DNA from: a virus
Length of the DNA: 41,031 nucleotides
IMG/VR virus record: IMGVR_UViG_3300009129_000030
Coordinates: 1-41,031 of that record
Reading direction: 5' to 3' (one strand)
Numbering within the stretch: the first letter of the stretch is position 1; each line of letters opens with the position of its first letter. The translations under genes were made by a program, and so were the position numbers. Shown here piece by piece: positions 1,740 to 30,324 of the stretch. The notes under the pieces were generated by a model. It made no database searches. It was not told the origin of the DNA and saw nothing but the letters and a program-made list of their open reading frames with translations.

Positions 1740-2924
1740 ATGGCAAATAAGCTTGACGCCGCAAAAATACAAATGATTTTTAAAAAAAATTGCGTATTCT
1801 TTGCTACAATGATGTATCAAATAAACTGGGAATACTCCCATAAAGTGCCTACAGCAGCCGTAAACAGAATCACTTGTAAAGTTAATCCTGAATGGTTTAA
1901 CAACTTAGACGCAGAAGCACGGGTAGGTTTATTGGCGCATGAAATAATGCATATTGCCTTAATGCACCAAACCCGCATTGGTATGCGCGACCGTAAGTTA
2001 TGGAATATAGCGGCGGATTATCTCATTAATTTCATGCTAAAAAAACAAGGATTTGTTTTACCGGAAGGTGGCTTATATCATGAAGAATTAAATGATACAT
2101 TCACTACTGAAGAAATTTATAATATTTTAGTTGAAGACGATAAAAAAGATAATCCTAAGTATATTCCTGAAGATTATCAAAGTGATCTTGGCGAAGATAG
2201 TGAAGGCAGCGAAGAAACTTCTGCCGAATCAACAATGACCCCGGAACAAATAGCACAACAAGAAACAACAATGACCCCGGAACAAATAGCACAACAAGAA
2301 GCTGAAATAACTGAATTACTTGTTAATGCAGCTACACAAACTGAAATGAAAGGTTCTCCCGGTAGTATTCCCGACAACGTTACTTTGTTAATAAAAGATA
2401 CACTGTATCCTAAAATTTCTTGGACTACTATCTTATTTCAGTACATGACTGAATTTAACAAAGATGACTACTCTTGGCAGCGCCGTAACAGACGTTATCA
2501 AGATACTTACATGCCAGCTTTGTATTCAGAAGGCATGGGTAAAATATCTACTTACTTAGACATTTCATGCTCTGTTACAGATAAGCAATTCGCAGAACAG
2601 CATAAAGAAATGTTGCACATTAAAAAAGTAATGAACCCTTCTGAAATGGAAATTATTGAATTTGATACATCTATCAAAGAAGTACGTACATTCTCTGCCG
2701 ATGATACAATTCAGGATTTAGTGTTTACAGGTAGAGGCGGAACCTGCTTATCTGAAGTAGGTCAACGTATCGCAAAAACTAATTCAGAAGTATCTGTTAT
2801 ATTTACTGATGGGCACGTAGATCTTACACCAATAGAACGCTTACGGGACAAGCATATTATCTGGTGTATTATTGATAACCCTTCTTTTACTTCGACGATA
2901 GGCAAAGTGATTCACTTAAATTAA
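1740..2924 (+). CDS. Metallopeptidase-like/VWA protein, DUF2201 type (N4 gp25-like)
   Basis: A 394-residue protein with two parts. The N-terminal half has HEIMH at residues 67-71 followed by NIAADYLIN, the pattern of the DUF2201 N-terminal metallopeptidase-like domain. The C-terminal half is a VWA-like domain: the MIDAS motif DISCS (D274, S276, S278), T335 in GRGGT, and D357 in FTDGH, which together can bind a divalent metal. An acidic linker between them contains a 12-residue exact tandem duplication (TMTPEQIAQQE repeated). AAGAGG eight bases upstream supports the ATG at 1740. It pairs with the preceding MoxR ATPase, its likely chaperone partner. Whether it cleaves anything is not known; HExxH proteins of this family are called peptidases by motif. 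Confidence 0.85.
   Translation: MANKLDAAKIQMIFKKNCVFFATMMYQINWEYSHKVPTAAVNRITCKVNPEWFNNLDAEARVGLLAHEIMHIALMHQTRIGMRDRKLWNIAADYLINFMLKKQGFVLPEGGLYHEELNDTFTTEEIYNILVEDDKKDNPKYIPEDYQSDLGEDSEGSEETSAESTMTPEQIAQQETTMTPEQIAQQEAEITELLVNAATQTEMKGSPGSIPDNVTLLIKDTLYPKISWTTILFQYMTEFNKDDYSWQRRNRRYQDTYMPALYSEGMGKISTYLDISCSVTDKQFAEQHKEMLHIKKVMNPSEMEIIEFDTSIKEVRTFSADDTIQDLVFTGRGGTCLSEVGQRIAKTNSEVSVIFTDGHVDLTPIERLRDKHIIWCIIDNPSFTSTIGKVIHLN
2230..2300 (+). repeat. Two-copy 36-bp in-frame tandem repeat
   Basis: Thirty-five bases beginning at 2230 recur identically at 2266, giving a 36-bp period. The repeat is in frame and duplicates TMTPEQIAQQE in the linker of the VWA protein. Near-identity at DNA level indicates a recent slippage or duplication event. 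Confidence 0.9.
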
Positions 2925-12787: not shown

Positions 12788-15700
12788 TTAAAACAACGTT
12801 TCTGCCACATGAGAAACAGGCATAGAATCAATGCCTTTTTCTGCATAATTCATTAGCCCAAGTTTGTTGGTAATTGAATTAAACAAGAAGAAGGCATCAT
12901 AATAAGTAGGTAAATCTACTCCTAAAGTCCCAATAGTTGCCATAAGCTCCATCACTTTTCTAGGTGAGTTTATTGTGTTTTTGATTATAACTGCCTGTAT
13001 ACGCATAAAGTATTTTAAGAACCATACTTGACCAACGTCACCTAAATACTGCAAATACTTGTTTGACGGTAAATCATAGTTAACAAAAGAATCCATAACA
13101 TTACCTAATGAACTTTCTGTTAACTGGTTACGTTCTTTCAGGTTTTTATACATAGCATAACGAGCACCAAAATCACCAATTTGAGTAAATTGGTAAGCTG
13201 TTTTGTACCATTCTGACTCTTTGCTTGCTGCCAAGTTTCGTGTTACCCATTGAACACTTTCGGGCAATTTATTATTTAAAGAATTGGCTTTATCACCTAG
13301 CTTAGTAATAGAGTTGTACGGGTTAGTGTCCGCTTCAACATCCTCTACAATAGCAGTAAGTAAACCAGCATCTATAAGAACAGAGGCAGCATTCTTTGTT
13401 TGCTCTGTACGTAACTGAGCTAGCGTATTTTGCATAGCTGTAGTGTCCCCTAATGAAGTGCTTATATCAAACTCCAGTCTACGTATTTTACTTTGGTTTT
13501 CTTGATAGATTTTAGCCAATTTCAACCCTTCCATTTGATAAGCTATAGCCTTACGTATAGACATACCTTCGCTTTCTAGCACTAACTGAACAGTGTTTGA
13601 CAGTATATTGCCTATCAGTACTTCTAAACCCCTTACTACAATCCAATCTTTTATATAAGAAGAAATCTCTGTCAAAGCTTTCTCCCCTTTCACAATACCC
13701 CTAATTAAAGCCTTATCCGAAATAAATAAGCCAAGCGTATTTTTTATTACTGACTTTGCCCACTGAGGAGAATCTGAATTTGCCCTTAGTACATTGGCCA
13801 AAGAAGCCTTACGGTAACCAAATACTTGGTCCATTAGACTACTTCTAACGTAAGCTAAATCCCCCCACTTATCTGCTAAATCCGCTCTAGCTTTTGGCGG
13901 TAACATTCTCCAAGCTTCCCTACCCCTTTTAGTATTAGCTTTCTTACCAATCTGCACATAATCATTAGTATTGCCTTGAGCCAAGTCTTGCTTGTACGTA
14001 TTAATCAAAGCGTCATTAACCAACTTGTTATAGTTATCACTATGGCTCGCCTCTATAGTTCTTCCGTACATATGCGGCAATACAGACTCAATGCGTCTGT
14101 CTGCATTAAGTATAGTCTTTTTCTGTGCGGCGGAGATAGAGTACTTATACGCTGTAACATTACCCTTGCTATCTACTACAGCAGACGTACCAGACTGCAT
14201 AATATTTCGCTTAGTGCCACGAACAGAAGATGTATTCTTCATATTTTTTTCATAATTTTCTCGTGTGCTTTTAGCATGCTTACGTATCTTTGCATAGTCA
14301 TCAATACCATCAGTTACGCTTCTGCCATCCAAGTTATCAATACCACGAGTATCAGAAATAATTGTTGAGACTGCGCCTTGTTGGTAAGTAGCAGCACCGC
14401 CTATGTCAGAATACATTATGAACATTTTGTCTTTATTAGTGTCACTAGGGTTTCTAGGCATTTCACCTAACGAAGTATAACCATCATGCACTAACGCATC
14501 TATATCTTTGGCAGGTACGATACGTACGTCTCTATATGGGTCGTGTATTTCACTGATGCCTCCCTTGAGCTGTGCATACTTATCCCCTCTATACTTATCT
14601 TTAAGCTCCTGCTGCTTCTGTACGGCTTGCATATTAATAAGTGATGCAATCGCACTAGGATTAATTTTGATAGCTTCTACTAGCGTCTCCTTGGCTCCCT
14701 GACTAGTCTGCTGAATAGCTACCAAGGTTGAAAGTTTATCTACGTCTTTTTCTAACCCCAATAAGTTTACTTTGAACACTCTGCTTAATTTAGTTACTGC
14801 AGATATTGCATTAGGGAAGGTAGTATTTTCAGTACCTTTATGATGTATAGCGAACCAACCCATGCTGTGAGCATGGTCAATTAAAGCGGTGCTTGCTTTT
14901 GAACCAGTAAGCCTAGATTCTAATTTAGCAATCGCTTCTTCTAATTTTGCAGGATTTGTATATAAGTCTCTTATTTGCTGTAAATCAAATTCATCTGTTA
15001 TTGCAGACAAGTCTGTATTTACTACCGCCTCAGTATAATGAGCAGAGTTACTTTTAGTCAGTAAAGAACCTAATTCTGAATGTATTTTATTGCTTACCGC
15101 TTTAATAGCGCCATCCCTTGAACCAGCAATAGCTCTATTCTTAGCCATAAATAGACGACGTATAAATTTATTATTGTCATTGGTAAGACTGACTTCTTCA
15201 ATTATTCTAGGAATAAAAGAACCGTATCCATGGTGAAGCTCGTGGAATATTTTGCTATAGGCCTCAGCTTGTTTAGTATTGTTGGTGCCTTTGATAGTAT
15301 CAGCAACACCCATAGCGGTAGACTTAGCTGCACTTTTAAGCCCACTTACAGTAGAGGAACCAAGAACCTTTTTATATGCTGCGTCAGCCCAACTAGCATA
15401 CGTAGTGTATGTTTTATCTAATTGGCCTACCATACCTACTGCACGTTGCTCTAACTTACTTTTAGCCCTGAACTCACTTAATAGTAACCGTTTAGAAACT
15501 ATATCTACTTTGCGTGTAAGGTTGCCCTTGGCACCAGTTAATGACTGAGTGAGTGCACTATGCACCTTATCAATAATCTTAAAGATTACACCGGATAATT
15601 TGTTATTTGAACGACCATCTTTAACAGGGTCAAGGCGTTTATCTAATACTTGACGCACTTCTTCATTAGTTTTAGCCATGGCAACAAATTCAGCTAAGTA

Positions 15701-18700
15701 CTCAGATTCTGTTCTGACATAACTAGCACCAAATTTGTTAATGCGAGATACCTTTTTAATTGTTGCCGTTGCTGAGTTAAATAAGGCATCCCATTTTTCT
15801 TGCGCTATTGCCATAGCTTCAGGACTAGTATCCCCTTCAGTAAGAAAGTCTTCAGGAGTGATTCTAGCCTTTGCAGTATTAAATAACTTAGTTAGCTCTT
15901 GAGATTTAATATTAAAACTATCTAAACCAACTTGAATAATATGCTTATAATTATCGTACATGTACGACTCTGCAGGCGACATGACAAAAGCTGCATCCAT
16001 TCTAGTTGGCGCATTCGACTCACCTTCCTCTACTAACCCTCTTAAGGTTTCCATAGCATTAATTGCTTTATCTTTTAGTAAAGCATTCTTGCTAGTTTGA
16101 AGATGTAATATTTCTTCTCTAAATATTCTGGTTAATTCATCTGAATGTTTAGAGGTATTGTTGCTCATTGCTAAAAGATTGTTAAAAGTATTTTCCGGAT
16201 CTAGCACAGCGACATCTTGTAAAGATATCTGGGTTTTATACTGGTTAGCTTCATCTGGCTCAACAGTAGAATTTTTGGCAATAGTCGATGAAGCTTCTAC
16301 AAGAAAACTCAATATAGAATTTTCATGAAACTTAGCCTGACCAAGTACTTTACGAATAACTCTCCGAATAGCTGCTAACAGCTTTTTAGCAAAAGTCTGT
16401 CTGGCTGCTGCTACAGACTCATTTTTATTTTCTGCTAATGCAGTGACATATTTAAAGTTAGTTAGGCCCCATGCAAATAACTCTTTGGCTGAGAATCTTA
16501 TAGGCGTATAACCATTCTCAGGCATGTATTCTACTTGCACTTCTTTAGTAGCATCTGCTTGCAATTGATTAACTAATTTGGAAAAGTCCTTGTTGTTTTT
16601 CATCTCAGAAACTAAACCAGCATCTAAAACAGAATGCACCATTTCATGCATTAAGGTTTCAATGTTTATACCGCCATTATTTTCGTGTAAATAAATAGTG
16701 TTCGTTGAAGGATCAAACATGCCTTTGCTTCTACGAATACCTTCTACTTTTTTAAGCTCTTGCTCATTTAGTTCTCTGCCTTCTTTTTGCTGAACCATGG
16801 TCAAAGTAGCATTGCTGTCCTGAATTACTATTCTAGGAAACTTACCTTTAGCCGTAAATGCTGGTGACAACACAGAAGTCACTAAAACTTTTTTAAGAAA
16901 GTCTTTATAAATCTGAGTAGCGTTACTTGCATCTATAAGTTTATTTAGTCTGCGGGAAGTAGCAGATCTGTTTTTACCAGTGCCTTTATCAGTCAGGGCA
17001 GTTATGTGCTCTGCTAGCCCGGCATCTTTAGTATGAGGAAAAAATAAATTATTAGGTATATTCGTAGCCTGTTCATCTAATGATTTAGTTGCATCAGGCG
17101 CACTAATATTTACAGAGTTTTTAACGCCATCTTTAGCAGATATTATGGTAGGCTTACCAGATAAGTTACCCATCTGGTCCACTGACATATCACCTTTGGT
17201 TAGTTGTTCTACCAGACTTATTTGAGCCGCAGCATCCTCTGCTCTACTAATTAGAGCAGGAATGTAATGCTCAATAATAGCATCTACTTCTGCCATATCT
17301 AAGTCTTTATGTAATTTACGTAATTCTAGTTCCGGGCTAGCAACTACTTGTTTATTGCGAGTTACGGTTTTTGTATTTAATGCTCTACTTATATCCCACG
17401 AACTTAATATATTGCCTTCTGCGTCTCTTAATGCAATTATGTTGCTAATAGAGCTCCAATAAGCTACATCTCTTATATTATCTACTATAGTAGCTTTACC
17501 TGCTGCAGATAACGTGGCTATACTTTCTTTCCATGAGGATTCTTCGCCCAATGTTCTTTTCATCGCATCTACGTGCAGTTGTAATTGAGGATTATTTAAA
17601 ATAGATTCAAAATAAGCTAAGTTACTTACCTGAGCCAGACCATCTTGATCAAGCGTGTTAGATAAAATACCGTCAAATACGTGCATAATATCTTGACCGC
17701 CAGCAATAGTACCAGCAATCATTGCAGCATCTGCGATACCTTGAGTACTTAAAGGTAGTGCACCTGACGCAATAGGCGTAACAGTCTGGCCTCCTGACAC
17801 AATACCTGAAGGGTCTGTAGATAATGAATGCCTTTTTATAGAAGCTGATTCAACGTCATCTGGTTGCGCCCACTTAAACTGAGGTATGGCATCTACATAA
17901 TCCACTTTATCGTCATGAATGTTTAAAGAAAGAGTAGGCATAAATTTCATAACAGACTTCAGTATAGCTCTTTCTTCTGTAGTCGATAAACTTTGATAGT
18001 CAGAATAGCCTGCTTTATCTAAAGCTTCTTGGTAAGCTTTTTCATAAGTTTGACGAGCAAACGGAGCAACAGCATTCATCATTTCCCTAATCAAAGTAAA
18101 GTGCGTTACAGCATCTGAATAGTACGTATTAAAAGCACCTACTTTAGCCCCTGAGTAACCAAAACCACTTTTAAGATTAATAAACATTTGTGGCTCTAAT
18201 TCTTCAGGTAAAGTAAACCCTAAACCAAAATGCTCAGGACTTTTAGCTTTATCTTCTTCAATAGCGCGATCAATAAGTTTTCTATTTTTAATTGCTTCTG
18301 CTCTTAACTCTTCTTGGCTAAATGTTTTAGTCACTTGACCGTATTCAATCAACTCCGTTGTTGCAGACATTGCAATAATATCGGATTTAAGGGAATTAAG
18401 TAATGCTGAGCCATGCTCAGTTAATCCTTTTTCATCAGTATGGTTAGTGCGTATATTCTGCATCTGATCATAAAAATTAGATTCTATTTGCGCCATGTCA
18501 GAACGTATAAGAGAATTAGTTCCTGCGCCATAAAATGCTTCGGTTACAATAGATTTGGTTTCATTACGATGAACACTTACTGTTAGAGCTTCGCTGTCTA
18601 GAGCCACTAATTTACCCAAAGATTTTAAACGTAATTGAGCCAGAAGTATTTGCTTATCTACACCGCTAGCAGTAATTAGCGTATTGTTTAAAGCAGTATT

Positions 18701-21700
18701 TATAACTTCTTGCGTTTCTTCATATAAGCCAGTAACTACGCCAGCTTCAAGTCTTTGAGCATGAGTTCTTCTATCTGAGGCATCACTAATACCGCCTTTT
18801 AAAAGGTAAGTTTTTAACTGGTCAACATCTTTAACTGAATTAACTAATGCAGTTATAGGCCCGTTGTTTACCCCATCAAGTTCAATAGGCAAACTTACTT
18901 TCATTTTATCCGGCGCATCTAAGTACTGTACGTACTCGGCTAATCCCATGGCTGTATGCATAGCAGGATGCCCTGCTAGTTGGAGGTCTCTTACGTAATT
19001 AACGTATAGATCTAAATTATCTGCTTGCTCTCCCTTGTTAAGCTTACGTACTATTTCTAGTATTTCTTGTACTTCTGGTTTAGCGAGCTCTTCATGTACG
19101 CGTAATAAAGCAGTTTCTGGGGATAACTTATCTACGCTTATATCTAATGCTTGAGCAACGCCAAGCATGAATAACACCTCTTCTTTAGTATTACCAGCAG
19201 GGCTTTTAGTTAGCTCCCTTGGCTCAAGATTTATAGCAAAACGATGTAGCTGTTTATTAGTTTGGTAATTTAAAGTTTTACTATCAACAGTTAAACGATA
19301 GTTGCTAATAACTCTGTGATTAAAAAATATAGGCGTATCAAATAACGCAGACGTTATACCAGTATCTTTAACGGTTTCCACCATATCTCTATAGAAAGTA
19401 TAGTAGTTATCAATACCCTGCCTAATAGTCAGGTTTTTACTTTTATTTAATGCCTTAGTTGCATCTAGAAGGGTTTCACCTGTTTCAGGCAACATACCTA
19501 ACATAAGACCTAGATTATCTGAGCCAAGCACAGCTATATGTCGGGCCATAGTTTTATTCAAATAAAATGGTGTTTTATTGGCTTTTTTTACAACGTTCTG
19601 CATTTGCTTACTCAACGTACCCACATTATTTTTTATAGCCTTATTTACTGTTTTATGTGGTCGGCCTATAGATGGCGTTGATTTATTATAATCAGTATCA
19701 AATACCCTACTAAATAAACCAGACTTGCTTTTTAAACCTTCTCCTTCTGTAGAAATAGATTTAACAAAAGGATGCTCTTTGTTTGGTATGTAAGTATTCA
19801 AAGCATCCACAGATTTAAACTGAGTGTGTTTATCGGCATTTTCAAAAGTAGCAATAGTGTAATAACCCCTATTTGCATTATTAGACGACTTCCACACGTA
19901 AAGTGCATCATTGTATTCAATAAGGTTATTGCCTACACCAACTTTTTTTCTGGGAAATTGGTCCAATTTAATAACATTAGGCATGCCTTTAATTGGATTC
20001 TTTGCGCCAAAACGAAACATCTTGTTACGGGAGATTTTTACTTCTTTAAATATACCTGCATCAACCATGTAATCTAATATTACTGAGCCAAGAGCGTCTC
20101 TAACCCTATTTTTAGTGTTGGCATGCTTACCGCTAAATTCTATGCCAGCAATAGCAATGGCATTATTACCTAGGTCTTGTATAGCATTATTCTTTGAAAA
20201 ACCTACCCCAGTTTCATCTAAATAGTCTGTTAATTGCCCTGATGGCGAAGCTTTACGATCTAGGCCGCTTATGGCTATAACTGACTGTTTTGTTAGACCT
20301 GCAGATTTAGTCATAAGAAACTCTGTCATAGACAACACAGAGGCCTTGCTAAGCATTTTATCCATACCCTTAGTTAGTGGGTCATTTGACAAGAATAGCG
20401 CTCTAAAGCCGCTCTTAGCTTTGTTATAAGGGGTATTCTTAACAGTAGCTCTCTTGTCATTCTTGCCTTTAGTGGCCAGCTTGTTTAAAACGCTTTTATA
20501 AAGGAAATCTGATATCCCGTTTTCTAAGTTATTTAGATCTAAAGCATCTACCATGCCAGTAAATTGCTCTGCCTCGGCAGAAGAAAGCCCAAGGCTACTT
20601 ACCTTATCTTGCACTTTACTAAGGAAATTATCTGTTAGATCTTCATTTGTAGAATTACCTACAAGAGATGTTTTATTTATAGAGCCTTCTTCAGCCAACT
20701 CATTGTACTGAGTTAACCACTGAGCATTTACAGGTTTTGACGCTAAACCTCCTGTGATTGGCCCAGTAAAGAATGATTTTCTAAAGCCGCTAGCAACACG
20801 CTCTGAGCCAGTAGTTATTTCTTTTTGGCCAAAGTTTTCGTCATCAATGGCATTACCTAATAACTCAGTAGCTCCATCTAGTAATTTAGCAGGAGTCTGA
20901 TCAATAAATTCTTCCGCCGCCAAATCACCAGTAAGCACTTTACCTAAGTCATTTACAGCATCTGCTAGTGCTCTACTATTAGCGCCTTCTCTGGCTCTAG
21001 TAATAAATGGGTTTATTGCCTCTGGCTCAGCAAGAAATTCGCTTTCACTGCTTTCAGGTAAGTTAATTAAACTTTGTACTCTTTTAGCAATACGGTCTGC
21101 ACTACCAGTTAATTCAACAGCTTTTTCTACAGGCGATACGCCTAAGCTAACGGCTATCTCGTTTGCTGCCGCTAAGGCCTCTGTGCTTCCCTCCTGCTGG
21201 ATTTTTTGTAACACTGGTTCAATTGCCGCAGGTAAGTCGCTAAGCTCTTTAGTGGCGTCTAAGAAGCTTTTTTGTATATCTCCAAATTCTTGGCTAGAGA
21301 TGTTATTTGGTTTAGGGAATGTGCTTATTTGATTAGCCAATTCCTCTGTTTGAGTAGAGGCAGCTTCTTCAACAGTTTCGCTTAAATTACTGACTACAGT
21401 GTCTACTGCATCTTTTAAAGGAGTATCTGTTACAGCAGCATTGATAGTAGCGCCAATTTGTTTAAGCGAAGTTGTGTCAGCTCGCATAGTAGCAATTACA
21501 TTTTCAGAAGTACCTGCTTTAACCCACATATCACCTGTACCATTAATCTGTTTATATGGCACACCTTCAGGATTTAAAGGAGTAACTACTTTACCTGTAG
21601 CTGATGACTCTTCTAAAGCTTTTTCAAAAGCAGCCACTTTATCATCCATATGGCCAATAAATCGTTCTACTTCTGCCACTTGTTTAGCCACATAAGCAGG

Positions 21701-23725
21701 GGCGTCATTGGCTATACCGCGTAAGACATTATTTAAATAAGTTCTGCCTCCTCGCCATTCTTCAGAACCAATTATAATATCTTCAGACACTTCTTTAGAG
21801 GTTTTACGTACTGCTATTAAATCATCAATTAACGCCAATTCACTTTCTTTGGCACCAAGCTCTTTAGCTGTATTACGCGCAGAAGTTAAGCTTTCAACTG
21901 AAATAGCGTTATCGCTATCTTCGTTACTTAAGTGTAAAGATAAATCACCAAGAAAATCTTTAACTAGTTGATTTTCATTTCTGGCTTTTTCGCTCAATTC
22001 TACTATATCTGCGTCAGTAGACTTAGTAATGATATCTTGGTTCAACAAAGAATTAGCTGCGTTAGCTGCATCTAGTTTAGCCCTTGCTTGTTTAATTACT
22101 TCAGGTGATTGTTTACCTTCTTGCTCAAGTAAGTCTATTTTAGCTTCTTCATCTAATTGAGCTAACTTAGCTTTGGCATAAGCAATTTTTTGCTCATTAC
22201 TCATTGCACTGAGATTTACTTTACCATCTTCATTTTTAGGAGCTTGCTCTATTGCTTGGTTGCCTTGCACTAGTGTACTGTTCAACTCTTTTTCTAGGTT
22301 GACGCCTTCGGCGTCTTTATCTGAGCTTTTCTCTACTGCTGAATTAAGTAAGTTAATGCCTCCTGCTGTCATTAAAGAACTACCTAAGCCTGTGACTGCT
22401 CCTACAGCAGCGGCACTAGACACACCTTTAGAAGTGTCTAAATCTTTATCAATATTTTCTTTAATGGCTTGATTAGATAATGCCTTGCCCCCACCAGACT
22501 GTACGCCTTCTTCTAAAAATTCCCCTGCAGAAGAAATAGCTGTTTGTTTTAATTTACTACCAGCAGCCTTAGTTTTAACGCCACTTGCAATCTTTTCTAA
22601 GCCTACGCCAAATACTTTAGCAGCGGCCTTACCTAAGAGCGCTGAACCACTACCTACTTGAGTAGCTACTTTACTAGCCAAAGCTTTATGCGCATCTTCT
22701 TTACTCATAGTCAAACGTAGCTTTTGATACTCAGGTGATTTTTCTAAGTCTTCTTGGCTTAAAGACATGACCTCGCTGTAAGTTTCAGTAAAGTTAGACG
22801 CACCCTCAAGTTTGCCTATTTCAGTAGAGGTAGCAGTACCAACTTTTTTATTAATACGCTTTTCTAATACTTCACTACTTATAGGACCTGCAGTTTTAGT
22901 TTCTCTTTCTTTAACCTTACTGGCAGTAGAAGATACTTTAAGTATTAAAGGTATGGTTTCAATGGCACTTTCTACTACTCCGGCAACTCCTGTATGCCCT
23001 ACAGCAAACTTAGCTTTAGCAAATTCAGCAGAACGTATTTGAGCCGGGGTAGCATTATCTGGTAAAGCATCATCAATGCTTTGCTCATAAGCAGCTATAT
23101 CTTTTGCTATTTGGGCTTTACGTGCATTACCCTCGTCACTTTTTAAAGAGCCAAGGCTTTGTTTAATGCTGCTACCTACTGCAAGTATTGGATCAAGTAC
23201 TTTATTGATTGCTTTTACGGTAGGATCATTTTGAGCCATGGAATCAAGATCTTTACTTATCTTGTCAATGTAACCGCCTTCTTCTGGTGTAGTAGCCTCA
23301 CGAAAGCTATCTCCGTAACCTAGCTTATCTGCTACCCATTGAAAACCACTGCGCCCACCTCTAATAATATCAGCAGGGCTAGTGAGTGCTTTATTTATGG
23401 CAGGTGCTGCCTCAGCAATGGATACACCCATTTGAGCTGCGCCAACTAAACCATCTTGAATAATGCTGCTTTGGTTAAGTGTTTGCTGTCTAAGGTTGTT
23501 TTGTTGGTTGAATTCCATTCGTTGAGCTGCGGTAGCAAAAGGGAATCGCTTATCAAACTCAGCAAGCGAAAATACCGACTCAGTTCCTTGAAGTCGGCTT
23601 TGTTTATCTACGGCAGCATGTTTAACTGCTTCTCTCTTAGAGTCTAATAAAGATGACGGGTCATCAATAAATTCATTTTGTGCGGTATCTATACTAGAAG
23701 TTAAAGTAAGAAAATCAGTACTCAT
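12788..23725 (-). CDS. Virion RNA polymerase, N4 gp50-like, with metallopeptidase-like signature
   Basis: A 3645-residue protein, close to the ~3500 of N4 gp50, which is packaged and ejected to transcribe early genes. Single-subunit polymerase motifs: R1477 (ISNYR, place of the T/DxxGR Arg); motif A D1617 in LPIELDGVNNG; motif B R1720/K1724/Y1732, with the exact 4 and 8 residue spacing of T7 RNA polymerase; motif C probably D2018 in MHVFDG. Distances R-D (140), D-K (107) and K-D (294) resemble my recollection of N4 (135, 111, 281). Downstream, HEMVH (2360-2364) and ELFAWG (E2415) form a zincin-like signature, and a second HExxH (HELHH) lies at 2828-2832. The N-terminal ~1300 residues have glycine/alanine-rich segments of the kind seen in ejected internal proteins. 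Last gene of the late arm. Confidence 0.93.
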   Translation of the reverse strand: MSTDFLTLTSSIDTAQNEFIDDPSSLLDSKREAVKHAAVDKQSRLQGTESVFSLAEFDKRFPFATAAQRMEFNQQNNLRQQTLNQSSIIQDGLVGAAQMGVSIAEAAPAINKALTSPADIIRGGRSGFQWVADKLGYGDSFREATTPEEGGYIDKISKDLDSMAQNDPTVKAINKVLDPILAVGSSIKQSLGSLKSDEGNARKAQIAKDIAAYEQSIDDALPDNATPAQIRSAEFAKAKFAVGHTGVAGVVESAIETIPLILKVSSTASKVKERETKTAGPISSEVLEKRINKKVGTATSTEIGKLEGASNFTETYSEVMSLSQEDLEKSPEYQKLRLTMSKEDAHKALASKVATQVGSGSALLGKAAAKVFGVGLEKIASGVKTKAAGSKLKQTAISSAGEFLEEGVQSGGGKALSNQAIKENIDKDLDTSKGVSSAAAVGAVTGLGSSLMTAGGINLLNSAVEKSSDKDAEGVNLEKELNSTLVQGNQAIEQAPKNEDGKVNLSAMSNEQKIAYAKAKLAQLDEEAKIDLLEQEGKQSPEVIKQARAKLDAANAANSLLNQDIITKSTDADIVELSEKARNENQLVKDFLGDLSLHLSNEDSDNAISVESLTSARNTAKELGAKESELALIDDLIAVRKTSKEVSEDIIIGSEEWRGGRTYLNNVLRGIANDAPAYVAKQVAEVERFIGHMDDKVAAFEKALEESSATGKVVTPLNPEGVPYKQINGTGDMWVKAGTSENVIATMRADTTSLKQIGATINAAVTDTPLKDAVDTVVSNLSETVEEAASTQTEELANQISTFPKPNNISSQEFGDIQKSFLDATKELSDLPAAIEPVLQKIQQEGSTEALAAANEIAVSLGVSPVEKAVELTGSADRIAKRVQSLINLPESSESEFLAEPEAINPFITRAREGANSRALADAVNDLGKVLTGDLAAEEFIDQTPAKLLDGATELLGNAIDDENFGQKEITTGSERVASGFRKSFFTGPITGGLASKPVNAQWLTQYNELAEEGSINKTSLVGNSTNEDLTDNFLSKVQDKVSSLGLSSAEAEQFTGMVDALDLNNLENGISDFLYKSVLNKLATKGKNDKRATVKNTPYNKAKSGFRALFLSNDPLTKGMDKMLSKASVLSMTEFLMTKSAGLTKQSVIAISGLDRKASPSGQLTDYLDETGVGFSKNNAIQDLGNNAIAIAGIEFSGKHANTKNRVRDALGSVILDYMVDAGIFKEVKISRNKMFRFGAKNPIKGMPNVIKLDQFPRKKVGVGNNLIEYNDALYVWKSSNNANRGYYTIATFENADKHTQFKSVDALNTYIPNKEHPFVKSISTEGEGLKSKSGLFSRVFDTDYNKSTPSIGRPHKTVNKAIKNNVGTLSKQMQNVVKKANKTPFYLNKTMARHIAVLGSDNLGLMLGMLPETGETLLDATKALNKSKNLTIRQGIDNYYTFYRDMVETVKDTGITSALFDTPIFFNHRVISNYRLTVDSKTLNYQTNKQLHRFAINLEPRELTKSPAGNTKEEVLFMLGVAQALDISVDKLSPETALLRVHEELAKPEVQEILEIVRKLNKGEQADNLDLYVNYVRDLQLAGHPAMHTAMGLAEYVQYLDAPDKMKVSLPIELDGVNNGPITALVNSVKDVDQLKTYLLKGGISDASDRRTHAQRLEAGVVTGLYEETQEVINTALNNTLITASGVDKQILLAQLRLKSLGKLVALDSEALTVSVHRNETKSIVTEAFYGAGTNSLIRSDMAQIESNFYDQMQNIRTNHTDEKGLTEHGSALLNSLKSDIIAMSATTELIEYGQVTKTFSQEELRAEAIKNRKLIDRAIEEDKAKSPEHFGLGFTLPEELEPQMFINLKSGFGYSGAKVGAFNTYYSDAVTHFTLIREMMNAVAPFARQTYEKAYQEALDKAGYSDYQSLSTTEERAILKSVMKFMPTLSLNIHDDKVDYVDAIPQFKWAQPDDVESASIKRHSLSTDPSGIVSGGQTVTPIASGALPLSTQGIADAAMIAGTIAGGQDIMHVFDGILSNTLDQDGLAQVSNLAYFESILNNPQLQLHVDAMKRTLGEESSWKESIATLSAAGKATIVDNIRDVAYWSSISNIIALRDAEGNILSSWDISRALNTKTVTRNKQVVASPELELRKLHKDLDMAEVDAIIEHYIPALISRAEDAAAQISLVEQLTKGDMSVDQMGNLSGKPTIISAKDGVKNSVNISAPDATKSLDEQATNIPNNLFFPHTKDAGLAEHITALTDKGTGKNRSATSRRLNKLIDASNATQIYKDFLKKVLVTSVLSPAFTAKGKFPRIVIQDSNATLTMVQQKEGRELNEQELKKVEGIRRSKGMFDPSTNTIYLHENNGGINIETLMHEMVHSVLDAGLVSEMKNNKDFSKLVNQLQADATKEVQVEYMPENGYTPIRFSAKELFAWGLTNFKYVTALAENKNESVAAARQTFAKKLLAAIRRVIRKVLGQAKFHENSILSFLVEASSTIAKNSTVEPDEANQYKTQISLQDVAVLDPENTFNNLLAMSNNTSKHSDELTRIFREEILHLQTSKNALLKDKAINAMETLRGLVEEGESNAPTRMDAAFVMSPAESYMYDNYKHIIQVGLDSFNIKSQELTKLFNTAKARITPEDFLTEGDTSPEAMAIAQEKWDALFNSATATIKKVSRINKFGASYVRTESEYLAEFVAMAKTNEEVRQVLDKRLDPVKDGRSNNKLSGVIFKIIDKVHSALTQSLTGAKGNLTRKVDIVSKRLLLSEFRAKSKLEQRAVGMVGQLDKTYTTYASWADAAYKKVLGSSTVSGLKSAAKSTAMGVADTIKGTNNTKQAEAYSKIFHELHHGYGSFIPRIIEEVSLTNDNNKFIRRLFMAKNRAIAGSRDGAIKAVSNKIHSELGSLLTKSNSAHYTEAVVNTDLSAITDEFDLQQIRDLYTNPAKLEEAIAKLESRLTGSKASTALIDHAHSMGWFAIHHKGTENTTFPNAISAVTKLSRVFKVNLLGLEKDVDKLSTLVAIQQTSQGAKETLVEAIKINPSAIASLINMQAVQKQQELKDKYRGDKYAQLKGGISEIHDPYRDVRIVPAKDIDALVHDGYTSLGEMPRNPSDTNKDKMFIMYSDIGGAATYQQGAVSTIISDTRGIDNLDGRSVTDGIDDYAKIRKHAKSTRENYEKNMKNTSSVRGTKRNIMQSGTSAVVDSKGNVTAYKYSISAAQKKTILNADRRIESVLPHMYGRTIEASHSDNYNKLVNDALINTYKQDLAQGNTNDYVQIGKKANTKRGREAWRMLPPKARADLADKWGDLAYVRSSLMDQVFGYRKASLANVLRANSDSPQWAKSVIKNTLGLFISDKALIRGIVKGEKALTEISSYIKDWIVVRGLEVLIGNILSNTVQLVLESEGMSIRKAIAYQMEGLKLAKIYQENQSKIRRLEFDISTSLGDTTAMQNTLAQLRTEQTKNAASVLIDAGLLTAIVEDVEADTNPYNSITKLGDKANSLNNKLPESVQWVTRNLAASKESEWYKTAYQFTQIGDFGARYAMYKNLKERNQLTESSLGNVMDSFVNYDLPSNKYLQYLGDVGQVWFLKYFMRIQAVIIKNTINSPRKVMELMATIGTLGVDLPTYYDAFFLFNSITNKLGLMNYAEKGIDSMPVSHVAETLF

Positions 23726-27784: not shown

Positions 27785-28663
27785 CTACGTTACATTTATA
27801 CCAGCATTAAGTTTAGCTATTACGCTAGAAGCTGCGACAGGACCAAAACCATAGCTCGTAGGTGCATGGCTAGCAGGCTCAATTGAGTGAGCAACGCTAA
27901 ATGCATCACTTTGTATCTTGGCTGCTTTCTGCTCCGCATCTCGCAAGAAGCCTTCTTTTTGAGTATAAAGGAGTTCCATTTGCTTACCTAACACACCGCC
28001 TACAGTATTGGTAAGTACGCCATTATTATCCGTTAATGTGCCTACAGTCTGAGCATCTTCCGTTTGCTTTCTAGCAGCAATTAAATCCTTCTCTGCAACA
28101 ATCTTATCATAACTAGCTAGATTTAAACCAGTTGTTGGCGTACTACGTACTTTATCTTCTGCGTCAAGTATCTGAGCGTCAACCAAAGATTCTTGTTTAG
28201 TAGTCAGATTTTTTTGTGCCGTTACTTGAGCTTTCTGTTCTGTAACTAAATTGGTTTGAGCAACAGACTGAGCTTTTTGCTGAGTGACTAACTCGCGTTG
28301 TTCTACAGCTAACGCTAACTGTTCTGGCAATAAATTATTTAGGTTATACTGGGCAATTGCATTATCTGTGGTTGCTCGAATTTTTTGTAACTCAAGCAAC
28401 TCATTTTGCTTTTTAGCTTGCAGAACTTGCTCTTGCTGTAAAAGTACTTGTTGGTTCACTTGCTCAAGTTTTAATAAGTAGTCGCTAGATACTTGCAATA
28501 CTCGCTCTAAACTACCTAAGTAAACTGTGGCATAATTTTGCTGAGTTATATTTCCCGTACTTAATTGCTCATCAATATGTGATTTGACTGTACGCATCAA
28601 TTCATCAAATATACCAGAACCTTCTACTTCCCCTGTAGTGAGTTCTCTTACACTTAAAGACAT
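27785..28663 (-). CDS. Helical Gln-rich structural protein, paralogue of upstream gene
   Basis: A 292-residue protein. The first ~65 residues (EGSGIFDELMRTVKSHI, then NYATVYLGSLERVL) align with the start of the gene just upstream (DGTGTFDVLMRSMKAHL, then EYAKVYMSMLNSTM). The middle is a Gln-rich helical repeat (TNLVTEQKAQVTAQKNLTTK). The end (residues ~190-292) is different and less repetitive. The start codon overlaps the previous stop by one base and follows a GGGGGA ribosome binding site. Both genes are likely virion components from a duplication; a similar N-terminal domain occurs in podovirus structural proteins by my recollection. Confidence 0.75.
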   Translation of the reverse strand: MSLSVRELTTGEVEGSGIFDELMRTVKSHIDEQLSTGNITQQNYATVYLGSLERVLQVSSDYLLKLEQVNQQVLLQQEQVLQAKKQNELLELQKIRATTDNAIAQYNLNNLLPEQLALAVEQRELVTQQKAQSVAQTNLVTEQKAQVTAQKNLTTKQESLVDAQILDAEDKVRSTPTTGLNLASYDKIVAEKDLIAARKQTEDAQTVGTLTDNNGVLTNTVGGVLGKQMELLYTQKEGFLRDAEQKAAKIQSDAFSVAHSIEPASHAPTSYGFGPVAASSVIAKLNAGINVT

Positions 28664-30279
28664 TATCTAAATCCCCCTCTTTCCTGTAGTACCGCAGTGT
28701 TTGCGACTATATTTTGAGTCTGTGCAACTACCTGCGCAGTTTGATTAGTTTGTGTAGTGACTTGTTCTTGCGCTACATCAGTCTGTGCTGCTGCCATAGC
28801 AATTGTATCTGCTTTGGTATCCGTTGATATATCAACTTGGTTCGCGCTTATTGCAGAGGCGTTAGACGCTTGTATAGCTTGCTCATCTAATATATTACCT
28901 TGGACTGTTTGTTGCGCAACTTGCTCTGCTACCATAGCTATACGGTTGGCCTTTGTAGCTGAAGAAATTTCAGACTGATCTGTAATAAGGTCAGTTTGTT
29001 TATCTGCTTGTATTGCATTCTGCGTTTCCACCAAAATACGTTGCGCCAATACTGATTCTTCAGCCTGAGATAGGTTAGTCTGTGATATTGCCAGAGAAGT
29101 ACGAGCTGCTTGAGTAGCAGTGGCTATACTAGATTCTACATCGCTAATTGAAGTAGCATTAATAGACTGTGCTTTCTGCTCGTCTAACAAGTCCCCTTGA
29201 GTTTGCTGCTGAGCTACTTGCTCTGCTACCATGGCAATTTGATTAGTCTTAGTAGCGCTGGCAATTTCTTCTTGAGTTGAAGTAAGCAATGCTTGTTTAG
29301 TAGCTATATCTGTGTGGCTAATAGCTTGTTTAAGGCTTTCTTCTCTTAAAGCTATCTGCTCATCCGTAGTTGCAGTGGCCACTGTTTGCTCTGCTGTAGC
29401 CAACAATAACTGTTGATCTAATATATTGCCTTGCGCTTCAGCTTGGCTCAACTGCTCCGTAGATAGTGCGATTAAATTAGTTTTAGTGCCGCTGGCTACT
29501 TCAGCTTGGTTAGTGAATATAACTGCATTCTGCTCTGCCTGAGTTACTTGAGCATCCCCAATTTTTTTCTGGTTACTTATACTAGCTATTTGGTCTGTGA
29601 CAGTAGACGTAGTAATAGTCTCTTGGGCAGTATTAATCAATGCTTGTTTAGTTGTAGAAATTGTATTCTGCACTGCTTGAAGCTTTTGTTCGGCAGTTAT
29701 ATCAGTATGGTTTAAAGACTGTTTTACTGCCTCTTCTGCAAGCTTTATCTGCTCATCTTGTGTAGACGTAATAATACTAGTCTGAACTACAGCTTGTAGT
29801 TTTTGTTCATTAGCAATATCTGTTTGATGCAAAGACTGCTTTACTGCTTCTTCAGCTAAACTTATCTGCTCATCTTGAGTAGATGTAATGATGCTGGTTT
29901 GTACTGTAGCTTGTAGTTTTTGTTCAGCAGTTATATCTGTTTGGTTTACAGATTGTTTTACTGCTTCTTCGGCTAAACTTATCTGCTCGTCTTGGGTAGA
30001 TGTAATAATATTAGTTTGTACTGCAGCTTGCTTAGCTTGCTCTTCTGTAATATCTGTAGAAAACCCTGCTTGCACTTTAGTAAGCTCAAATTGAATAGCC
30101 TGAGCCATAGTACTATTAAGCATGCTCATGTAAACCTTGGCGTATTCATCGCCCACAATACGACCTGCATCAAACTCTTCACTAAGGTGAGCTTTCATAG
30201 ATCGCATAAGAACATCAAATGTCCCTGTACCATCTACGGTAGTATCAGTTACTTGATTGATTAAAATTTGAGTGGGCAT
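28663..30279 (-). CDS. Helical repeat structural protein
   Basis: A 538-residue protein. The start at 30279 (MPTQILINQV) is chosen because AGGA lies about seven bases upstream; an in-frame Met 15 codons earlier lacks a site. Residues ~1-65 form the same domain as in the following gene. Residues ~85-200 consist of 39-residue repeats (IITSTQDEQISLAEEAVKQS in each). The rest has looser repeats around IAMVAEQVAQQ. Composition is dominated by Gln, Thr, Ala, Ile and Val, consistent with a long helical bundle or rod. Given its place behind the capsid gene it is likely a virion appendage, connector or internal protein. Confidence 0.78.
   Translation of the reverse strand: MPTQILINQVTDTTVDGTGTFDVLMRSMKAHLSEEFDAGRIVGDEYAKVYMSMLNSTMAQAIQFELTKVQAGFSTDITEEQAKQAAVQTNIITSTQDEQISLAEEAVKQSVNQTDITAEQKLQATVQTSIITSTQDEQISLAEEAVKQSLHQTDIANEQKLQAVVQTSIITSTQDEQIKLAEEAVKQSLNHTDITAEQKLQAVQNTISTTKQALINTAQETITTSTVTDQIASISNQKKIGDAQVTQAEQNAVIFTNQAEVASGTKTNLIALSTEQLSQAEAQGNILDQQLLLATAEQTVATATTDEQIALREESLKQAISHTDIATKQALLTSTQEEIASATKTNQIAMVAEQVAQQQTQGDLLDEQKAQSINATSISDVESSIATATQAARTSLAISQTNLSQAEESVLAQRILVETQNAIQADKQTDLITDQSEISSATKANRIAMVAEQVAQQTVQGNILDEQAIQASNASAISANQVDISTDTKADTIAMAAAQTDVAQEQVTTQTNQTAQVVAQTQNIVANTAVLQERGGFR
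29647..30040 (-). repeat. 117-bp tandem repeats within the helical protein gene
   Basis: The segment beginning with the bases read as agacgtaataata (plus strand, 29764) recurs at 29881 and 29998, a strict 117-bp period (39 codons). A further copy lies ahead of 29764 at a 108-bp offset. Copies differ by scattered, often synonymous changes, so they are older than the 36-bp repeat near 2230. Limits of the array are approximate. Confidence 0.82.
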
Positions 30280-30300
30280 AATGAATCCTTTGTAGGTAGA

Positions 30301-30324
30301 GTGAGCCAATACACACTGGCTCAC
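30301..30324 (-). other. 8-bp inverted repeat in gap behind 174-residue gene
   Basis: GTGAGCCA (30301-30308) is perfectly complementary to TGGCTCAC (30317-30324), with an eight-base loop. It lies in the 75-base gap between the 174-residue gene and the helical repeat gene. No T-run follows on the minus strand, so it is a hairpin of unknown role: possibly an mRNA processing or stability element, or a weak terminator. Confidence 0.5.

Follow-up and report, generated by a model that had tools for sequence, protein, structure and literature searches.

We found that the virion RNA polymerase (vRNAP) encoded in the window, by which we mean the whole 41,031-base stretch of viral DNA analyzed here, almost certainly carries a gluzincin domain at residues ~2250 to 2490 (16256..16978, minus strand), and that the residues predicted to form its active site were retained in every vRNAP that we compared. 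The N4 vRNAP has been under study for more than 50 years, and the full conservation of a predicted peptidase site makes it a testable question whether, during entry, this injected protein cleaves a host protein, the ejectosome, or its own chain. A domain of this kind is already described: Iyer et al. (PMC5512222) published it in 2017, delineating a zincin-like MPTase in the N4 vRNAP at amino acids 2130 to 2448, and finding it here is therefore no discovery by itself. The original prediction treated a peptidase as undescribed for the N4 vRNAP; this was wrong, and later papers repeat the description. A 2021 review (PMC8472413) reports the MPTase in Cbunavirus vRNAPs, and a 2025 cryo-EM preprint (PMC12633501) presents the solved N4 C-terminal domain and notes a conserved HExxH in its C1 region (2124-2375). 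According to that preprint, the N4 RNAP domain ends at ~2101-2103, a flexible 23-residue linker joins the C-terminal domain to the polymerase, the C-terminal domain represses transcription, and HExxH is also found in other, radical SAM-fused enzymes. Neither catalysis nor a substrate was reported for the vRNAP domain in the papers examined, which included these three. The remaining interest lies in the substrate and in a likely second copy of the module.

The vRNAP gene is the open reading frame (ORF) at 12788..23725 on the minus strand, which encodes an N4 gp50-like protein of 3645 aa. It matched PHROG 2206, "virion RNA polymerase" (E 0, 1067 bits), and a phmmer search of the PDB matched it to the N4 vRNAP structure 9pnr (E 3.9e-54). 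The polymerase core covers residues 1470-2045 (17591..19318, minus strand), where an alignment of 19 vRNAPs showed invariant R/K/Y/D columns, and the window protein has both the sequence of the family and these invariant polymerase residues. The invariant polymerase Asp D2018, in FDG, is probably motif C. The gene adjoins late virion genes, with the SSB, Sak4, and primase genes on the opposite side; PHROG matches among the neighbors were to SSB, a Sak4-like protein, primase, and DNA polymerase and to the major head protein and portal. The gene order around the vRNAP was the same in three of the reference phages (L002-L004), and the window itself is probably a fragment. Elsewhere in the window, the adjoining minus-strand genes at 27785-28663 and 28663-30324 each matched PHROG 2050, "virion structural protein," which suggests a duplicated or split structural gene. 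Additionally, a 394-aa ORF with a PHROG "HNH endonuclease" match (1740-2924, plus strand) contains the HExxH sequence HEIMH (codons 1938-1952), probably by chance.

The predicted active site of the vRNAP domain lay where the original prediction had put it. HEMVH occupies residues 2360-2364 (16634..16648, minus strand), with H2360 and H2364 as predicted zinc ligands and E2361 as the predicted catalytic base. The predicted third zinc ligand, E2415 (16481..16483, minus strand), is exactly 55 residues past H2360, in KELFAWGLTN, of which the part KELFAWGL starts at residue 2414. The distance from motif C, given as about 340 residues, was 342 from D2018 to the HExxH. The motif had also been placed inside the vRNAP, which is correct for the polypeptide and incorrect for the polymerase domain itself, since the site is C-terminal to that domain. 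Given the protein's own composition, 0.05 HExxH motifs were expected, and two were observed. The other one, HELHH at residue 2828, was rejected as a second active site: its His was present in 2 and its Glu in 1 of 23 aligned sequences, and it looks like a chance occurrence.

To the window protein we added 22 reference vRNAPs of named phages (L002-L023) from many Schitoviridae genera, giving 23 rows, and all 22 references had an HExxH past the polymerase region. In a 280-aa domain alignment of 23 diverse Schitoviridae vRNAPs (A1), the sole invariant columns were H, E, H, and E. The same result was obtained with a broader alignment of 70 diverse sequences, 13 to 91% identical to the window (A8), in which exactly four columns were invariant, those of H2360, E2361, H2364, and E2415 (H111, E112, H115, and E166 in the A8 numbering). 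Thus, the four residues are conserved together, as proposed, and do not vary. Two further positions were nearly invariant, each in 64 of the 70 sequences: a Glu four residues ahead of the HExxH (E2356, or E107 in A8; 16658..16660, minus strand) and an Asn past the distal Glu, in LTN (N2423, or N174 in A8; 16457..16459, minus strand).

We then turned to IMG/VR. A search with the single window domain as the query found no relatives, and an A1-based search returned 16 loci; the A1 pattern contains HExxH and is biased for a test of conservation, so the survey was switched to polymerase-core queries. No stretch of the all-family polymerase-core alignments was conserved enough for scanning, and the survey was done with sub-family alignments of the core (A5-A7). 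It yielded 151 loci with a core, and 140 ORFs, including the window, extended at least 500 aa beyond it. HMM alignment placed H, E, H, and E at the four positions in 137 of these 140 ORFs; the other three (L155, L165, and L178) had been missed by the default filters, and direct reading showed an intact HExxH and later Glu motif. When the distal Glu was sought by a strict regular expression, 23 ORFs appeared to fail, which was an artifact of the expression, as all but those three intact sequences showed the four residues in the HMM alignment. Overall, the HExxH and downstream Glu were kept in 162 of 162 vRNAPs, made up of 139 IMG/VR ORFs selected by polymerase motifs, blind to HExxH, and the 23 reference rows. 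The 162 sequences are not all independent, because some IMG/VR entries repeat reference phages. At 70% identity, 116 survey domains formed 82 clusters. The spacing from the HExxH His to the distal Glu in the survey ORFs was 53 to 95 residues, with a median of 68.

AlphaFold2, run on A8, modeled the domain with a mean pLDDT of 75.9 and a pTM of 0.73, and the HExxH helix was at pLDDT 92-94. The elements appeared in the order helix, strand, helices, two strands, HExxH helix, long helix, and Glu helix, which matches the order of the MPTase core given by Iyer et al. (PMC5512222). Helices 4-17 and 22-44 (model numbering) precede strands 49-53, 86-89, and 94-98, that is, a three-stranded sheet after an N-terminal helix. 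The HExxH, at 111-115, lies on helix 106-128, and E166, equivalent to E2415, lies on a helix of its own, 164-173. In this model both motifs are carried on successive C-terminal helices in the element order of a zincin. The best PDB fold matches were to lethal-factor-type (M34-like) zinc peptidases, with a probability of 0.97 but an E of 0.19 and a TM of 0.29; Iyer et al. (PMC5512222) also reached this superfamily, via HHpred. In a search of predicted viral structures, the SBP1 vRNAP and proteins with a large polyvalent protein annotation matched best.

In profile searches, the domain matched the C1 region of the N4 vRNAP in the PDB at E ~1e-91 and 9sfn_G, a phiKMV-type "Internal virion protein," at E 3e-21; it weakly matched Spartan/SprT, aureolysin, thermolysin, and the PhiM1 ejection protein gp48 (8vb2, E 2.6e-4), whose paper does not mention a peptidase. 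With the window domain alone, Pfam DUF6782, "putative metallopeptidase," was hit at E 0.0021 over the HExxH half, a partial match that did not reach the gathering cutoff (17.8 versus 27 bits), and an NCBIfam search gave no match. The sub-clade signature of Iyer et al., a His ending strand 2 and an Asp ~3 residues past HEXXH, was not found as a conserved vRNAP feature. H2347 and D2368 of the window are near these positions; neither is conserved across vRNAPs, and the signature therefore does not define the vRNAP group. The window domain is the counterpart of N4 vRNAP C1 and belongs among the domains of phage polyvalent proteins termed "MPTase." The invariant H/E/H/E set and the predicted order of elements support the original reading as a Glu-zincin, from which we infer zinc binding and catalysis.

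In the full-length alignment, the HExxH of two Varunavirus-like sequences did not share a column with that of the other sequences, and this mismatch led us to a second copy of the module. In the window, a block at residues 2562-2716 (15578..16042, minus strand), identified by a copy-2 HMM and by hhalign, aligned with the HExxH and Glu helices of copy 1 and appears to be a degenerate zincin alpha-half. Its HExxH position reads Y2590-D2591-N-Y-K2594, and its distal Glu position is E2679. In N4, copy 2 lies at residues ~2436-2572. The block is at the start of the C2 region, which has been described as being without known homologues. The copy-2 HMM, built from two-copy vRNAPs, matched 161 of the 162 vRNAPs. 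None of the 156 two-copy proteins had HxxxH in copy 2, and the position of the first His was mostly Phe or Leu. The Glu of the HExxH and the Glu four residues ahead of the first-His position were often retained. When copies 1 and 2 of 21 references were compared by hhalign, the E value was 7.9e-6 (probability, 84), versus at least 0.013 (probability, at most 3.4) for 16 control blocks taken from elsewhere in these proteins. With 156 sequences the match was weaker (E 7e-5; probability, 63). An hhalign match of A8 to A9 (E 8e-16) was discarded, as the two alignments overlap in sequence. The AlphaFold2 model of copy 2 in the window was all-helical (pLDDT 70) and had no meaningful structural match in the PDB. 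Because the hhalign match weakens as sequences are added and the all-helical model lacks a PDB match, we rate the second copy as likely, not proven.

A single copy was present in five vRNAPs, those of the Varunavirus-like phages BUCT194 and PhiImVa-1 and of three IMG/VR contigs (L183, L188, and L189), and all five had the intact H/E/H/E set. The copy-2 profile gave the BUCT194 copy 76 bits, whereas the copy-1 profile gave it 27. All five group as one clan in the polymerase tree (support, 93/89), and loss of a copy within this clan is favored, not shown, because the tree is unrooted. We consider it fairly probable that the C-terminal region of vRNAPs is a duplicated zincin module in which copy 1 is always intact, copy 2 has lost both His residues (EASVFEAIQA, versus ETLVHELVHA in copy 1) and the beta half, and one clan has a single, copy-2-like module with an intact site. 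Since no tested vRNAP lacked an intact site, selection on catalysis appears to be strict, even where the domains were rearranged. Neither Iyer et al. (PMC5512222) nor the available part of the preprint (PMC12633501) mentions a duplication or an inactive copy, and the degenerate copy has apparently gone unreported so far.

The explanation that we prefer, and rate as somewhat better than even, is that the vRNAP carries a gluzincin-type peptidase that acts after ejection on the vRNAP or on other ejected proteins. H2360, H2364, and E2415 would bind zinc, and E2361 would activate water. The domain would ride in the capsid within the full-length, unprocessed vRNAP, and its activity would start only once the chain had been ejected and refolded. 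It would then cut the vRNAP itself, perhaps in the flexible linkers flanking the polymerase domain, or other ejected proteins, and cutting of a linker would relieve the inhibition of the polymerase by the C-terminal domain. Iyer et al. (PMC5512222) state that the N4 vRNAP is packaged without being processed, and recombinant full-length gp50 was purified with no evidence of degradation, according to the preprint (PMC12633501); thus, self-cleavage is at least not constitutive. That the domain is proteolytically active at some stage is likely, and a peptidase is favored by the retention of the intact site in the clan whose repeat arrangement changed. The presence of the domain in other ejected proteins that have no polymerase links it to entry, not to transcription, and suggests a role there.

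The main rival reading keeps the peptidase active and gives it a host target (a defense, envelope, or transcription factor), to which it would be delivered with the vRNAP as an early effector. Iyer et al. (PMC5512222) proposed this alternative, and the presence of the domain in unrelated architectures, phiKMV gp37 and the DarB-like antirestriction protein of phage Parlo, is consistent with it. However, the recorded hosts span Vibrio, Escherichia, Pseudomonas, Rhizobium, Roseobacter relatives, and Acinetobacter, and a phage-encoded substrate fits better with a domain found in the vRNAPs of such varied hosts. Early effectors also are often patchy in distribution, whereas this domain was present in every vRNAP tested. 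A host target is therefore possible rather than probable, and we lean slightly toward the vRNAP or ejectosome as the main target. Less likely still is a structural role, in which the fold and its metal site would serve as a zinc-stabilized clamp that holds the polymerase and the large helical C2 domain together and would cut nothing. The preprint (PMC12633501) describes contact of N4 C1 with the polymerase through a D2012-R2279 salt bridge, no cleavage of gp50 has been seen, and in the degenerate copy part of the fold has persisted although the site is gone. A purely structural zinc site, however, would not need the catalytic Glu, and the invariance of E2361 makes this role unlikely. Chance co-occurrence of an HExxH and an unrelated Glu in so long a protein, for which the unconserved HELHH offers a precedent, is refuted by the 23- and 70-sequence alignments, the latter with no invariant domain positions other than these four, and also runs against the low expected motif count and the independent finding of the N4 zincin domain in 2017 (Iyer et al.).

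The window domain can be set against known systems. In the N4 vRNAP gp50, the MPTase/C1 domain (PDB 9PNR) likewise follows a T7-like polymerase domain and has the same four catalytic-type residues, which from the sequence are HELVH at 2228 and E2310. The N4 and window domains are ~17% identical, and the His-to-distal-Glu spacing is 82 residues in N4 versus 55 in the window protein. The nearest named relatives are the vRNAPs of Vibrio phages SBP1, K479, and D505, whose domains are 28 to 32% identical to that of the window and have the same motifs. The window and these three form one supported group of four in the polymerase tree, and the sequence divergence argues for a separate lineage for the window phage. 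The window groups most closely with the IMG/VR contig L190 (IMGVR_UViG_3300017782_000068), with 93% identity in the polymerase core and 91% in the zincin domain, and by these identities it is a second member of the otherwise isolated lineage. Two roseophage vRNAPs have an extra HExxH far upstream, at residue 1178 in DSS3P2 (L022; GKAILIHEAGHLVDNH) and at residue 1291 in RPP1 (L023; GKAVVIHEMAHIIDF), possibly as part of another MPTase domain. Two very large phage ORFs (L026, 53-14416, and L037, 5582-15643) each had two domain matches, both with HExxH; in L037 these are at residues 1482 and 1736, each with a downstream Glu. The Serratia phage Parlo DarB-like antirestriction protein (L041, 4422-15716) has a zincin domain with an intact HExxH and Glu. 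The internal virion protein gp37 of phiKMV (1337 aa; L040, 3795-7808), an injected ejection protein of the same length as 9sfn_G, matched at 75.6 bits with HEAVH...KELVAWGLT; unlike a vRNAP, it has no RNA polymerase and instead has an annotated endolysin domain. The occurrence of the zincin domain in both phiKMV gp37 and a DarB-like protein points to an entry function common to unrelated phage lineages.
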